Below, one piece after another: positions 1-7,206 of a DNA stretch of 25,005 bases; positions within the stretch are counted from its first letter, which is position 1, and each line of letters begins with the position of its first letter. Both the position numbers and the translations under genes were made by a program. This DNA is from a virus. The stretch spans positions 1 through 25,005 of IMG/VR virus record IMGVR_UViG_3300032047_000120; one strand, written 5' to 3'. The notes under the pieces were generated by a model that was not told the origin of the DNA, made no database searches, and was given only the letters and a program-made list of their open reading frames with translations.

Positions 1-3000
1 TGTTGTGATAAGTTTTTACTGTACATCACACCTGTAGATTTTAATGCTTTTAAATTATTTTTTTGAGCAGCATCAAAAGCTTTTTTATCTTTTATTATTT
101 CAGGACCTATTACTTTACCAGTTGATAATTGTTTTAGTTTAACATTAAATTTACCAATTGTAAATGGATTGTAATATCTAACTAGAGACATCATAGTACC
201 ATCATACCAAGAAGGCATAAAGTCTTTATAAAATTTATTTACAGACTTATGAGCTTCTTTAGATATTAAAGCTGTTCTATAACTGTTTAACTTATTTTTA
301 AAATCAGTATTTTTCTTACCACCCGTTATGTATTCAAACATAGACAAAGCTATATCTTTAGCTGGTGTCATATGCTCAAGATCTATTTTACCAGCAACTA
401 AACCTTCTTGCACAAAATCCATAATACCAGCTAACCTTAATAATGAAGCTGGATTATTGTTCATTGTTTGCATTAAAGCAGCTACTTGTGTATCGCTTAT
501 TTGATTATTTTCATAAGCTGTTTTTAAACGATCAGCTAATTCACCTAAAAACTTATTATGTTTTTTACTATTTTCTACAGCTTTAGTTAATTCTGGTTTT
601 GTAAACATACGTTTCTTTCTATGTAAGTCGTATGTTATAGCATTTCCTTTTATATCTACCTTATCTCCTGGCGCATACTTATCTACAAAAGCATTGAAGT
701 CTGCTTTGTTGTCAAACAAACCATATCTATTTGTATTTTTCTTGTCAGGTTTATAATTTTTGTTTTCTATTAGTGTTGTGCTACCTGGTTGTGTTGGTGT
801 AAATCTACCATCACCAATTTTTGAAGCAGCAGCCATACCACTAAGGTTTTCTATAAACTCTTGTCTACTTATTAATTTATTTTTTAACATAAAAGCTAAA
901 GTAGCTCTTGTATTTTCTACATCAGATTTATTATTAAATATAGTTGATCCAGTTGGCCCATCATAACCATTTATACCTTTAAAACTTAATGGTGAATCAG
1001 GATCTAAACCTGCTTGTATTTTTATTTCTTGTTTAAATAATTCTGTTGCTGTTAAATTAGCTGCAGCTACAGATGGTTGAAAACTATTATACTTTTTCCA
1101 TATATCATTTAAGTCTTTTACAATACCATTTAGTTGTGATTTAGTTAAATCAAATTCAGCTAAATGACCAGGTAAAACAGCTGGTAAATTATTCATATCA
1201 TTAGGTGATAAATTTAAAGAAGATAACTTGTTTACTAAATTTATAGCTAAGATAGAGTTTGTGTTACCAACTTTTCTTATAGTTTTACTAAACATAACTT
1301 CTGACTTACCATCTTCTATAAATTTAAGAGCATTTATAGATTGACCACTCTCTAACTGTTGATCTCTTACAGCTTGATTAGTTAGCATTTTACCAGTTTG
1401 CATTACTAAAGCTTTTATTCTAGCACTAACATTAGTTTCTTTTTTATAAAGATTAGCACCGTCTTCTATAATACCAAAATATTCAAGAAAATCTTTTTTA
1501 TAAGCTTTGTAAGCGTCTGTTTCTACTTTTGATTGTACTATTTCACCACTTTCATTTGTGGTTTGTTTTACTGTAAATTGTTCTGGTATAGGATTTTTAA
1601 CTTGTGTAGTTAAATTTGTTGCGCTACCTGTTTTAGCATATGATACTTTATCACCTTTAGTGTAAAATTTATCTAATAAAACTTTTTGAACACCTGTTGA
1701 TGTTCCACTAGCTGTTGTACCGTTTGGTAACATAGACATTAAAACATCTGCGTTCTGCTCTATAAACTCTTGAGCATTTTTTATATCACCTCTAGTTAAG
1801 TTACCAGCTTTAGGTTTAATACCAAACATTTCTTGTGTTTGATTAGGTGTTCTATCTGTTAAGCTTTTAAAAGTTTGTCCCTCTGGATCTATGTTTAATT
1901 CTTTTACCAAACCATCAATTTGTTTTGCTATGTCAGAATTTAATTCATCTTTTAATCTTATTTTAACTTTAACATCTGTAGTTGTGTTAGCTGCTTTACT
2001 TGTTTGATCATAGTTGTTTTCACTTACTATGTTATCTATTTCACCTGGCGTGAAATCACCTAAACTAACTTTAAAATCTAAACCAACACCGTACTTTTTT
2101 CTTACACCGTCTATCTTTTGTTCTATTTGACCATTTATCCAAGCACTAATACTTTTACCTTGAGCTGGATCCCATCTTCTTATTATATCTACAATACCTC
2201 TAGCACCTTTAACATCACCATACGCTACATCAGCTATCATGTCTTCTATATGTTTACCGTAATCTGAAAACTTAGAATACTTTTTAAATCTTCTTGCTAT
2301 TTCATTTCTCCAACCAAAGCCTGCTTCCATAGCTTTATTTGCGTCAAAACCATCCCATGAGTAATTACCGTCAGCATCTTGCTTTATATTTAACAGTCTT
2401 TCTGTTTGATCAAACAATTGTTCTTTACCCATAGAAAAATCAACACCATCTTTCTTTTGCATTTCTTGTACAGCTTCTGTAGCCTGAGCCATTTTTACTT
2501 CGCCTTTTATAACAGACGCAGCTGCTCCTTGTATTTCACCAGCTTCAAAACTATCAGAAAAACTTTTAAGTAAATTAAAAACATCTTGACCTGTTTTTAT
2601 TTCTCCAAAAGTATCAATGTTGTTTGTAGTACTTTGCCACCAGTCTAAAGCTCCTTTTAATATAGATTGATCTGCTTTTAAATCATACTTTCTCATAAAG
2701 TCAATAGCTCTAGCTAGCTTTTCTTCAGCTCTTTTAGCCTCGTTAAATCTTTTATAAGCAGGATCATCTTGTACAGCTTCAAATAAACCTTTATATCTAC
2801 CAGATAAATAACTTTCAAGCATGTTAGCCATTTTTATCATATCGCCACCTTGTTCAACAATTGATCTAAATAATGTTTGATGACTAAGCTCATGTGAAAA
2901 TACACTAGCGTTACCTATACCACCACCTCTTTCAGAGTTTGTTAAATCTTGAAAAGTAAAGTTTTGGTTACCTTGACTCATAGAAAAACCATGAACATCA

Positions 3001-5282
3001 TATTTACCGTCTTTTGCTTTTTTTACTTCTTCGTTTAATCTATCTTTTAATATTTTTTTATCTTGATTACCTAAGTTAGAATCTTCTATTTGTTGTAAAC
3101 CATTTTTTAACAAATTATCTACACCTCTACCTTTTATAACATTTATGTTTTTACCAGAAAGCACAGCGTCTTTCATTGCTAATTTACTTGCCAACTTAGA
3201 ATCTTTACTTAACTGTGATTTGTTAAGTATTATTTCATGTTGTAACTCTAACTTTTGTATATCTTTTATTATATTGTTTATAGACTTTGCTTTTTCTACA
3301 GATGTTTGTGAGCTGTTGTTTATTTTATCAATATCTGATTTTTTACCACGTATCTCAATCATGAGATCCATAGCTTGTCTTTTTTCAGACTGTGTTAAGT
3401 TATCTACTCTTTGTTCTGTTTCTAACTTAGCATCTAAATTAAATCTTAATAATTGATCTTGTTGTGCTCTAGCTTGTTTAATAGCAGCTCTATTTTCTGG
3501 AGTATCATTATTTTCTAATCTAGCTATTTCAGTATCTAATGATATTATCTCAAGCGTGTTTGAATTTATTTTACCCCATGTTTCTTTTGTAGTATAAGCT
3601 TGATACATATCTTTAGCAACTACTGGAGCTTGAAAACCAAAACCAGACATCATAGCACCTGTTAAATAAGCAGTACCAACACCATCTAACATATCAACAT
3701 CATTGCCTAAAACGTATTTATCTATAGCGTTTTGACCTAATGTTGCAAACATTTCAGCAGAACCTTCTTGATTAACATTAACAGCATATCTACCCAAAGC
3801 TTTACCAAAAGTCATTTGCCTAAGCGTATATTTAGGAACATCACTTGTTAAGTCTAAAGCTTGTTTAGAAGATTCTTTTACAAATGCTTTTTTAAAATTA
3901 TTTTTTGTAAAACCAGAACCTAACGCTTTCATCATACCTTTTGCTTGACCTAAGCTAACTTTTTCAGTTACATATTCAGCAAGACCAAATCCCATAGCAC
4001 CACCATAGTATTGCAAAGCGTTTATGTCTTTACCATCTGCCATTTGTAAATTCATTTCCGACATTTTGTTACCAGCAGCACCAGCAGATATAATAGCTAA
4101 ACCTGTACCACCTGTGCTAAGTGTTACAGCTGTGTTAATAGCTTGCTCAGAAAATAAGTCTAGCATAAATGTTCCAAAGTCATCTAAACTATCAATATCA
4201 CCAAGTTGTATGTTTTTTCGAGCTTGACCACCAATTTCATCTGCGGCATTAGCAATCATATCAGAGGCGTTGTCTATGGTTTTATATATCATACCTTTTT
4301 GCTTTAAAATAGGTCTTAAAGCAGCTGGTACCATAGCTAAATCATCTTCGTTTGTTAAATCAACACCTAATATATTTTTAGCTAAACCACCATAAGTTAA
4401 TGTTTCAGCACCTAATTGTGTTAAACCACTTATTAAACTTAAACCAGTTTTAGTTAGCTTCATTACAGAAACATCTAGCTCGTTATAAGATCTTTTTGAA
4501 ACATCAGCTAGCTCGGCTAATGTTTTAGCTTCAGCACTCATACCGTTTAAAACTTCTATATCTTCTTCAAATAAAGATACATGTGCTTTAAACTCTTCTT
4601 GTAAAGCTCTGTGTTGTTGTACTATGTCTTGTGTGATTTGATCTTCAGGTAGGTCTACTATTTGTTGTAGCTGATTAGCTACGTTTTCTATGTGAGATTT
4701 ACGGTTTTTTATTGTCTGTACTTTTTTTGTTACAGCTTCTTCTTTTGTTTTGTATTCTGTTTTATATTGCGCAGACAAAGCCATCCTTGACAGCTCGTAT
4801 TTACTAGGTTTGTAACCACCAGGTCCAGCTTTTGTAACAAGATTAGTTATATCTTTGTACCAAGGTTGTATATCATCTTCCATGTCTTCAAGAATATCAT
4901 AACTTCTTTCGTTTATAATATTTTTTCTTTGCTCATCAACCCACATAGATCTAGCTTGATCTCTGTCTACACCGTCTTTTATTAAGTCTTCATATGGTAA
5001 AACCTCATAATCTTCGTATGTAGTGCCAACCATTTTATCTAGTTTAGCATTGTATATACCTATATCTTTTACTCTCTGCTTTGTTATTTTAGTGTCAGCT
5101 TGTAAATTAAGTTGTTCCTCTTCTTCAGGTTTTAACTTAGCTTCATTGTCAAGCCTATACTTGTACAAACTAGTTTTATTTGTAACTCCAGGTAGTTGTT
5201 GATTAAGTCTTGCTTCATCAGAATCTTTTTTAACTAATTTAAAAGTTCCGTTTGGAAGCTTAATTCCTATTAGTTCTTCCAT
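1..5282 (-). CDS. Giant polyvalent-type internal virion protein with zincin-like metallopeptidase motif (3' truncated by window)
   Basis: This reading frame was checked codon by codon: it stays open from an ATG at 5282-5280 to base 1, giving at least 1760 residues with no stop, so the C-terminus is outside the window. It starts 8 bases after the preceding gene's stop. Visible parts in order: a charged helical N-terminus (about 1-260); several Gly/Ala-rich amphipathic stretches (about 375-405, 423-441, 535-550); a coiled-coil-like region (about 590-720); a HELSH zinc-binding motif at residues 797-801 followed by helical sequence, as in zincin-like peptidase domains; a WDPAQGKSISAW motif from residue 1037; and an LEHMTPA motif at about 1635-1641. 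Very large, multi-domain proteins of this kind, called polyvalent proteins, are known in phages and are thought to be packaged and injected with the DNA. Position after two small Ala/Gln-rich proteins supports an ejected-cargo role. Substrate and partners are unknown. No DFDGD polymerase motif was seen in the visible part. Confidence 0.85.
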   Translation of the reverse strand, partial: MEELIGIKLPNGTFKLVKKDSDEARLNQQLPGVTNKTSLYKYRLDNEAKLKPEEEEQLNLQADTKITKQRVKDIGIYNAKLDKMVGTTYEDYEVLPYEDLIKDGVDRDQARSMWVDEQRKNIINERSYDILEDMEDDIQPWYKDITNLVTKAGPGGYKPSKYELSRMALSAQYKTEYKTKEEAVTKKVQTIKNRKSHIENVANQLQQIVDLPEDQITQDIVQQHRALQEEFKAHVSLFEEDIEVLNGMSAEAKTLAELADVSKRSYNELDVSVMKLTKTGLSLISGLTQLGAETLTYGGLAKNILGVDLTNEDDLAMVPAALRPILKQKGMIYKTIDNASDMIANAADEIGGQARKNIQLGDIDSLDDFGTFMLDLFSEQAINTAVTLSTGGTGLAIISAGAAGNKMSEMNLQMADGKDINALQYYGGAMGFGLAEYVTEKVSLGQAKGMMKALGSGFTKNNFKKAFVKESSKQALDLTSDVPKYTLRQMTFGKALGRYAVNVNQEGSAEMFATLGQNAIDKYVLGNDVDMLDGVGTAYLTGAMMSGFGFQAPVVAKDMYQAYTTKETWGKINSNTLEIISLDTEIARLENNDTPENRAAIKQARAQQDQLLRFNLDAKLETEQRVDNLTQSEKRQAMDLMIEIRGKKSDIDKINNSSQTSVEKAKSINNIIKDIQKLELQHEIILNKSQLSKDSKLASKLAMKDAVLSGKNINVIKGRGVDNLLKNGLQQIEDSNLGNQDKKILKDRLNEEVKKAKDGKYDVHGFSMSQGNQNFTFQDLTNSERGGGIGNASVFSHELSHQTLFRSIVEQGGDMIKMANMLESYLSGRYKGLFEAVQDDPAYKRFNEAKRAEEKLARAIDFMRKYDLKADQSILKGALDWWQSTTNNIDTFGEIKTGQDVFNLLKSFSDSFEAGEIQGAAASVIKGEVKMAQATEAVQEMQKKDGVDFSMGKEQLFDQTERLLNIKQDADGNYSWDGFDANKAMEAGFGWRNEIARRFKKYSKFSDYGKHIEDMIADVAYGDVKGARGIVDIIRRWDPAQGKSISAWINGQIEQKIDGVRKKYGVGLDFKVSLGDFTPGEIDNIVSENNYDQTSKAANTTTDVKVKIRLKDELNSDIAKQIDGLVKELNIDPEGQTFKSLTDRTPNQTQEMFGIKPKAGNLTRGDIKNAQEFIEQNADVLMSMLPNGTTASGTSTGVQKVLLDKFYTKGDKVSYAKTGSATNLTTQVKNPIPEQFTVKQTTNESGEIVQSKVETDAYKAYKKDFLEYFGIIEDGANLYKKETNVSARIKALVMQTGKMLTNQAVRDQQLESGQSINALKFIEDGKSEVMFSKTIRKVGNTNSILAINLVNKLSSLNLSPNDMNNLPAVLPGHLAEFDLTKSQLNGIVKDLNDIWKKYNSFQPSVAAANLTATELFKQEIKIQAGLDPDSPLSFKGINGYDGPTGSTIFNNKSDVENTRATLAFMLKNKLISRQEFIENLSGMAAASKIGDGRFTPTQPGSTTLIENKNYKPDKKNTNRYGLFDNKADFNAFVDKYAPGDKVDIKGNAITYDLHRKKRMFTKPELTKAVENSKKHNKFLGELADRLKTAYENNQISDTQVAALMQTMNNNPASLLRLAGIMDFVQEGLVAGKIDLEHMTPAKDIALSMFEYITGGKKNTDFKNKLNSYRTALISKEAHKSVNKFYKDFMPSWYDGTMMSLVRYYNPFTIGKFNVKLKQLSTGKVIGPEIIKDKKAFDAAQKNNLKALKSTGVMYSKNLSQ

Positions 5283-5290
5283 GTAAATTA

Positions 5291-6556
5291 TTATTTAAAT
5301 CTAGATTTCAACCAATTACTTGCTCCAGGGCTAGTTGTTTTTATTCTACTAAGTTCTTTATCTTGTGACATATCATATTCAATCCAATAATCCCCTTGTT
5401 TTCTAAGTTGTCTATTTGTACTATATTTATTTGTTGCTGATGGGTAAGCTGTATATCCAGGTACCGTTTCTTCTTTTTCTGTTATAGCGTTTACTTGTGT
5501 AGTTTCTTCAATAACTTCACCATAACCTTCTTCACCAGCAAGTATACCATCAAGCACGCTGTCGCCACCTTCACCACTTTTAGCAGCTTTACCTTGTTTT
5601 GCAACAGTTTGCAAGTTACCAACTAAATGATCTTCTAGAGCTTCATTAATAGCTTCTCTTGCATCAACGTATACAGCAGGATCTTTACTATTAGCTGCGG
5701 CAACAGCTTCGTCTAAGCTACCAAAACCAGCAACGCTTAAACCTTGTTTAGCTATAGGGCTTTTACCAAATAAATCATCGTATAAAAATGATCTTGTAAC
5801 TTCCCAGCCACCTTCATCTAAAGTGTTGGCAATATCGTTTCTGTGCATTGTAATATCAGCACTACTTAAATCTCTACCAGCATTATAAACTGATTTGTTT
5901 TTTGTTAAAAAACTTTTAGCTTCACCAAAAGCTTTATTAAATGGTTGATCTTGTGTAGCTATATTAAAGTTAAATTTTTCAACTCCTTCACCACCAAAAA
6001 ATAAATTACCATCATCACCTATTTCTATATCTAATTCATCTGTATACAAGCTAGCATTTCTAGACATTGTTCCTTCTGGATCATTTGCTGCAGAAAAATT
6101 CTTATTACTATAATCTTCTAAAAAAGATTGTTTTTGACTACCAAAAGCTGTAAACTGGTTTTTCATATTAACCATAGCGTTTTTAGCATTGTTTATAATA
6201 TCAACTCTAGCTTGATAACCTTCTTCACCTGGTTGAAAATGTATTATATCTCTAGCTGCAGCGGCTGCATTTATTTTCAACTCTTGTAACTTAGTACTTA
6301 TAGCACCTCTATATTTTTGTGGTATTTGTGAAACATCAAAGTTTGCAGGTATACTATCTATATAACCAGCTATAGTTTGATCGTTTTGTGCTTTTTTATA
6401 TTTTTTTTCAGCTTGAGCTCTTTGCGCAGCTTGAATCATAGCTGCTCCATAGTCAGGCGACTGTCTACTTATATTTGCTTGTCTCATAGCAGCCGCGTTA
6501 CCTATACCTGACCCGTATGCTGTAGCTGCTCCTTTTATTAATGCTTCGTTTGCCAT
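5291..6556 (-). CDS. Probable internal virion / ejection protein (421 aa)
   Basis: The product is soluble-looking, with an Ala/Gln/Lys-rich helical N-terminus (about residues 1-60), a mixed middle with an acidic segment (around 170-190), and a hydrophilic C-terminus ending in basic residues (LKSRFK). There is no signal peptide or clear membrane helix, and I recognise no catalytic motif. Its place between the 211-aa Ala/Gln-rich protein and the giant polyvalent-type protein matches the usual cluster of three internal virion proteins in podoviruses (compare T7 gp14, gp15, gp16 or P22 gp7, gp20, gp16), so a role as an internal or cargo protein delivered with the genome is inferred from context rather than sequence. 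The gene starts 14 bases after its upstream neighbour and has an A/T-only leader without a Shine-Dalgarno sequence. Confidence 0.75.
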   Translation of the reverse strand: MANEALIKGAATAYGSGIGNAAAMRQANISRQSPDYGAAMIQAAQRAQAEKKYKKAQNDQTIAGYIDSIPANFDVSQIPQKYRGAISTKLQELKINAAAAARDIIHFQPGEEGYQARVDIINNAKNAMVNMKNQFTAFGSQKQSFLEDYSNKNFSAANDPEGTMSRNASLYTDELDIEIGDDGNLFFGGEGVEKFNFNIATQDQPFNKAFGEAKSFLTKNKSVYNAGRDLSSADITMHRNDIANTLDEGGWEVTRSFLYDDLFGKSPIAKQGLSVAGFGSLDEAVAAANSKDPAVYVDAREAINEALEDHLVGNLQTVAKQGKAAKSGEGGDSVLDGILAGEEGYGEVIEETTQVNAITEKEETVPGYTAYPSATNKYSTNRQLRKQGDYWIEYDMSQDKELSRIKTTSPGASNWLKSRFK

Positions 6557-6570
6557 ATTACTTTAATTTA

Positions 6571-7206
6571 TTATCCTTGATTTTGTACAGCTGAAGCTGG
6601 TCCTGCAAGACCGCTTGCTACAGCGCCACCAATTTGTCCTATACCACCAATTACCGATTGTTTAGCTGCTTCCCTAGCTGCATTTGCGGCACCTAATCTT
6701 TGTTGTGCCATACCTAACATTGTACCTGTTTTTTCATACTGCAACTGTCTAGCCATACCAGCACCTTGTCTTTCCATAGCTTGATTTGAAGCTGCTTGTT
6801 GTGCCATTGCTGCTTGATTGCTAGACTCTTGTTGAGCTATACTAGCTGAAGCCGCTTGGTTTTGTTGAGCTGCTTGATTTGACATAGCTTGAGCTAATGC
6901 TGCTATACCACTGCCACCAGCGGCACCTTGCATACCAGACATTATATTAGCTTGTGAAGCTTGATTTTGTTGGGCAGCAAAATCTGCTGCTTGAGTATTT
7001 ACAGTTAAGTCTTCAGCGGTGTTTTCTAAGTTAGCGTATAAGTTAGACGTGTCTAAACCCATGTATTGCTGTTTCATAGCGTTCATCTCTGCTTTAGCTC
7101 TTCTTTGCTCTCTTCTTCTTTTTCTACCGCCTATTAAACCGCCCACAAGATTAGCCACTCCACCTAACGCTTGTGCTGCCATCATACCACCTGAAATTGG
7201 ATCCAT
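6571..7206 (-). CDS. Probable small internal virion / ejection protein, Ala/Gln-rich (211 aa)
   Basis: Residues 5-30 are Gly/Ala/Leu-rich with a GGLIGGR step, followed at once by a strongly basic KRRREQRR cluster, then a long Ala/Gln/Met-rich helical region (about 75-180) and a second Gly/Ala-rich hydrophobic C-terminus (about 184-205). This amphipathic, hydrophobic-basic-helical layout is typical of small podovirus internal core proteins (T7 gp14-like) and P22 gp7-like ejection proteins that insert into the host envelope to extend the DNA conduit. The assignment rests on composition and context, not on a recognised family signature. It opens a run of three presumed cargo genes that continues with the 421-aa and giant proteins. 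Upstream is a 34-base A/T gap with a short TTA repeat. Confidence 0.7.
   Translation of the reverse strand: MDPISGGMMAAQALGGVANLVGGLIGGRKRRREQRRAKAEMNAMKQQYMGLDTSNLYANLENTAEDLTVNTQAADFAAQQNQASQANIMSGMQGAAGGSGIAALAQAMSNQAAQQNQAASASIAQQESSNQAAMAQQAASNQAMERQGAGMARQLQYEKTGTMLGMAQQRLGAANAAREAAKQSVIGGIGQIGGAVASGLAGPASAVQNQG

Follow-up and report, generated by a model that had tools for sequence, protein, structure and literature searches.

The DNA analysed here, which we call the window, is a 25,005-base virus record (IMG/VR IMGVR_UViG_3300032047_000120), and the giant protein encoded at its edge almost certainly contains a zincin-like metallopeptidase domain. On balance, we lean toward the HELSH motif of this domain being the active site of a zincin within a polyvalent-type internal virion protein, serving mainly in self-processing. 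Taken as separate claims, catalytic activity as a peptidase is likely, and self-processing as the main role has a little under an even chance. The gene and the elements of the domain are as follows.

3..5282, minus strand: giant protein gene (open reading frame list and translation), encoding at least 1760 aa with no stop and continuing past the contig edge.
2577..3152, minus strand: zincin-like metallopeptidase domain, about residues 711-902 (65-domain profile; AlphaFold2 model).
2979..2993, minus strand: HGFSM (residues 764-768), a strand that precedes the active-site helix (63 of 65 domains keep G765; model).
2880..2894, minus strand: HELSH, residues 797-801, with predicted zinc ligands H797 and H801 and predicted general base E798 (65 of 65 aligned domains).
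2721..2723, minus strand: E854, predicted third zinc ligand, in helix AEEKLARAIDFMRK; 52 residues separate H801 and E854 (65 of 65 domains).

A first-pass annotation had placed an exact HELSH at residues 797-801 of a long open frame, with a Gly-rich turn ahead of it and a helix behind. Each of these points held: the frame runs from its start at 5282 to position 3 through 1760 aa without a stop, and the motif lies between GGGIGNASVFS and a helix. HELSH is the sole HExxH in this protein, and shuffling the protein's residues yields an HExxH in 0.5% of cases. Among 76 giants from uncultivated viral contigs (L018-L101, at least 2000 aa), 74 have a single HExxH and no giant has two, versus 0.9% by shuffling; the set holds some near-duplicates, so the count does not represent 76 independent events. 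The annotation had leaned away from coincidence, and these counts bear it out.

Four close relatives of the giant protein (L002-L005; 50-74% identity, with L005 full length at 2721 aa) keep GN-x-x-V-x-SHELSHQTLF and a downstream NEA-x-R-x-EEK. Profile searches with alignments of these close relatives recovered only the same four loci, and a profile search of genome contigs gave one match, nearly identical to L004. A giant protein almost the same as that of L004 is found in L014 (DQLC01000007.1), which was deposited as an Alphaproteobacteria MAG contig and is probably a phage contig binned into that MAG. Whole-protein alignment reached distant giants (L018-L022) at 26-33% identity, and one of these giants in turn reached 364 related viral-contig stretches; we kept 80 of them.

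We aligned 65 domains twice, by profile and independently by MAFFT. Most of them are only 10-22% identical to the window domain, and the only invariant columns in the unguided MAFFT alignment are H797, E798, H801, and E854. The x positions of HExxH vary among relatives (LL, FL, VL, IG, and others), and E853, beside E854, is not conserved (E/D/Q). Domains entered the set of 65 through a profile match and are thereby biased toward the motif; the HExxH count in the giants is independent of that. Free variation at H797, E798, and H801 had been named in advance as the sign of a wrong call, and all three are invariant in 65 of 65 domains. The search for a Glu or His near H797 and H801 that could act as a third zinc ligand led to E854, which is likewise invariant in 65 of 65 and lies in a predicted helix. 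By these residues, the predicted metal-ligand set of H797, H801, and E854 is complete, with E798 as the predicted general base. Along with the secondary-structure order and the named-phage homologues described below, the full ligand set supports the proposal that a giant and probably virion-borne protein holds a zincin-like domain.

With no more than 5 close sequences as input, AlphaFold2 first gave a poor model (pLDDT 49.7). The model built from the 65 sequences reached a pLDDT of 78.2 and a pTM of 0.70, and in it one strand is followed by helices, then two more strands (strands 21-27, 74-79, and 82-88), the helix with HExxH, and the E854 helix, with helix 100-111 covering HExxH. This modeled arrangement of strands, HExxH helix, and Glu helix fits the zincin plan, and the same secondary-structure order is given for the zincin-like MPTases of polyvalent proteins (PMC5512222). 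As here, a small beta sheet in those MPTases is followed by an HExxH helix and, further downstream, a Glu helix (Iyer et al. 2017, PMC5512222), and in both cases the domain is embedded in a giant protein of several domains whose gene neighbours virion genes. The window domain differs from the polyvalent MPTases of PF18818 and from other Pfam and PHROG models in giving no profile match; that paper sorts 12 clades. PF18818 (MPTase-PolyVal) found no match even at an E value of ≤10 in the window, L005, L018, elemo, Gundel, and phi18:3 records. With the window protein and the domain as queries, Pfam, PHROG, and PDB sequence profiles did not recognise the domain, the best PDB profile match being the zinc endoprotease 1c7k (E 0.069, HExxH in register). 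Foldseek against PDB and BFVD returned nothing at an E value of ≤0.001; its weak matches, which include viral proteins annotated as lethal-factor, IrrE, and SprT-like and a segment of the Gundel_1 structural protein, are at most noncontradicting. The domain is a branch of the known polyvalent-protein zincin theme that is invisible to the domain libraries tested. We found no earlier description of it in the literature on metallopeptidases of crAss-like or Cellulophaga phages.

The 65-sequence profile also finds homologues in named phages. In an hmmsearch over six proteins it recovers the part of elemoA gp21 that holds HEIFH (2.5e-11), and hhalign of the profile gives 9e-9 for elemoA gp21 (HEIFH) and 1.8e-5 for Gundel_1 gp074 (HEFGH). 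The match to the N4 vRNAP zincin family is weak (E 0.0058), with HExxH in register. Controls gave 0.11 for the reversed profile, 0.78-0.89 for column-shuffled profiles, and 0.14-0.17 for unrelated domains. Both elemoA gp21 (3694 aa) and Gundel_1 gp074 (2482 aa) are structural proteins with a homologous zincin and occupy the same place in gene order as the window giant. The zincin is unannotated in both, and its surroundings differ: in the elemo giant a DUF3293 adjoins it, unlike in the window protein, and in the giant of Gundel_1 (a Tenacibaculum phage) the neighbouring segment appears GNAT-like, by eye only. GNAT acetyltransferase-like segments were seen, again by eye, in the giants of phi46:3 (L006:11371-15687) and Gundel_1 (L015:7522-14967). 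The Cellulophaga phage proteins phi18:3 gp123 and phi46:3 gp120 (Pachyviridae) have an N-terminal region in common with the window giant (about residues 302-722). The giants of phi46:3, phi18:3, and phi13:2 have this N-terminal region in common, but no HExxH occurs anywhere in them. Because these Cellulophaga relatives lack the motif, the zincin is dispensable across the wider group.

The window encodes a head-and-tail module with a terminase, a portal, a scaffold-like protein, and a major capsid protein (Pfam/PHROG), together with two virion proteins of 241 and 369 aa; a 1450-aa protein has a crassvirus-muzzle signal at its C-terminal end (Pfam/PHROG). The major capsid protein is 50% identical to the capsid protein of Flavobacterium phage elemoA across 310 aa, and the N-terminal region of the giant protein matches Cellulophaga and elemo phages. 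Because of these two resemblances, the host is likely flavobacterial-type. The window phage is uncultivated and related to marine flavobacterial phages (elemo phages and Pachyviridae). Two genes lie upstream of the giant gene.

5291..6556, minus strand: 421-aa protein, corresponding in position to phi18:3 gp121 and N4 gp51 (homologues in L005, L018, and L019; position).
6571..7206, minus strand: 211-aa Ala/Gln-rich protein, Gly-rich at its N terminus, corresponding in position to phi18:3 gp120 and N4 gp52 (homologues in L005, L018, L019, L024, and L026; position).

The giant gene of the window, like its counterparts in elemoA, Gundel_1, and phi18:3, comes after a gene of about 200 aa and then one of 400-500 aa, with one additional small gene within this series in phi18:3. 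The giants of 2.0-3.4 kaa are encoded after portal, capsid, and tail genes, which is the polyvalent-type setting. The order small, mid-size, giant is also that of N4 gp52-gp51-gp50, an analogy in position and size. The N4 vRNAP is expelled into the cell along with two further ejection proteins (PMC12633501). This virion RNA polymerase, N4 gp50 (Schitoviridae), resembles the window giant in being an ejected protein, of 3500 aa, whose C1 domain has an HExxH and a Glu helix. The window giant and its relatives differ from N4 gp50 in that Pfam and PHROG recognised no polymerase module in them. The description of the giant as a virion protein is supported for the window phage by homology and gene order; the recorded MS/MS identification belongs to phi18:3 gp123, the homologue of its N-terminal region. 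Judged from these likenesses, the giant protein is very probably packed in the phage particle, and there is good reason to expect that the domain is part of the ejected cargo.

Other roles for the giant were considered. A virion RNA polymerase was rejected, since family searches and the DxDGD pattern found none; a T7-like single-subunit RNAP gave no Pfam or PHROG match in P0001, P0002, L018, and L081. A segment at window positions 2080-2240 (residues about 1015-1068) is conserved as GIVDIIRRWDP..G..ISAWINGQ and recalls sigma-factor region 2. A sigma-70 region-2-like reading of residues 1015-1066 (GIVDIIRRWDPAQGKSISAWINGQ) is not claimed because a profile search found no sigma factor in PDB. 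Nothing supported a peptidoglycan hydrolase role.

The giants have further features downstream of the zincin. In relatives, a HAD-like domain with invariant DFDxT, T, K, and DD residues lies further along the giant, beyond the end of the window contig, so that among enzymatic domains the window chain has the zincin and the HAD-like domain is seen in relatives only. In L005 (L005:14287-14874, plus strand), with homologues in about 80 loci, it is a HAD-like phosphatase domain whose DFDDT, T, K, and DD residues are invariant or nearly so; in L018 and L081 the domain has a weak PHROG match to polynucleotide kinase. The motif [K/V/M]FS[K/R] recurs in linkers after the zincin and on both flanks of the HAD-like domain in the window, L004, L005, and other giants, and two copies in the window are candidate processing sites.

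1284..1295, minus strand: MFSK linker motif, residues 1330-1333, candidate processing site (FS[KR] enrichment in zincin-HAD linkers).
15..26, minus strand: MYSK linker motif, residues 1753-1756, candidate processing site (in L005 it directly precedes the HAD-like domain).

Between the zincin and the HAD-like domain of the giants, [FY]S[KR] occurs 141 times versus 36 expected, an excess whose significance is overstated to some degree because the motif was noticed before testing. Permuted motifs were mostly near or below expectation in that region, and the overlapping [KR][FY]S was 2.4-fold up. The motif stands just after the HAD domain in 55 of 68 giants and just before it in 36 of 68, where 6-7% would be expected. 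Many copies are homologous: masked-flank clustering gave 60 clusters versus 22-41 for control motifs. With aligned positions collapsed, FSR ranks 1st, KFS 2nd, and FSK 11th among tripeptides of the zincin-HAD region; in the N-terminal part of the giants, FSK ranks 5049th. L004 has AMFSLNL in both linkers and L005 has VMFSKTI and VMFSKVD, a matched change at two sites. The elemo and Gundel giants, which carry a zincin, show no obvious abundance of the motif, and L082 has lost HExxH and kept FSK. FS[K/R] is a candidate cleavage site; it may instead act as a signal in assembly or in packaging. One candidate cleavage substrate for the zincin domain is a linker fragment that includes GKSEVMFSKTIRK. 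The first-pass annotation had offered three functions for the zincin, namely, cutting a host protein, opening the envelope, and processing the polyprotein. Of these, processing has some circumstantial backing from the repeated linker motif, and envelope opening has none.

In the mechanism that we propose, the giant protein would be packaged and delivered with the DNA in the manner of N4 gp50, and the zincin domain would bind zinc and cut peptides. Its main substrate may be its own giant protein, attacked in cis or by another copy, with cuts falling in the linkers after the zincin where FS[K/R] recurs and releasing parts such as the HAD-like domain. The specific version, in which the zincin cuts giant copies at the repeated FS[K/R] linkers during or after injection and so frees the HAD-like phosphatase and other parts, is tentative and less likely than not. 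Counting against processing, the vRNAP of N4 has a comparable domain and goes into the particle without being processed (PMC5512222).

The same zincin could take a host protein as its substrate, as an injected effector that cuts a host factor (defence, envelope, or transcription) early. Polyvalent proteins have been proposed as carriers of conflict effectors, zincins included (PMC5512222), and the variation of the zincin's surroundings by lineage, along with the Cellulophaga giants without a zincin, is as for an exchangeable effector. However, an active-type zincin in 74 of 76 giants exceeds the usual spread of an exchangeable accessory, and no host target is indicated; we regard this role as rather unlikely. 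Improbable, in our judgment, is a structural or degenerate zinc site, in which the fold would serve packaging or assembly of the giant and peptidase activity would be unneeded. The MPTase region of the N4 vRNAP is needed for encapsidation of a protein that is packaged uncut (PMC5512222), and two giants are natural variants with the domain kept: L082 (L082:3148-11565) has EELFH and an intact AEE in the second helix, and L097 (L097:3541-11700) has HDAFH in place of HExxH. The Glu of HExxH (E798 here) is required for catalysis and not for metal binding. Its invariance in 65 of 65 aligned domains argues against a purely structural site. The reading of HExxH as a coincidence in a structural protein that is long and helical and has no metal site has shuffling (0.5%) and the lack of a significant fold-library match in its favour, but we exclude it because a single HExxH is near-universal among the giants and the catalytic columns alone are kept in 65 diverged sequences whose x positions vary.

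Self-processing by the zincin, the reading that we prefer, bears on an older prediction. Zincin processing of polyvalent proteins was proposed in 2017 (PMC5512222), and in the literature we found no named cleavage site for it. The clade is large (364 related viral-contig stretches), with one conserved zincin per giant and a candidate linker motif, and distant isolated relatives exist in the elemo phages (Flavobacterium sp. BAL314) and Gundel_1 (Tenacibaculum), where processing is testable. If true, FS[K/R] self-cleavage would supply a defined motif for the autoproteolysis that has been predicted of polyvalent proteins.
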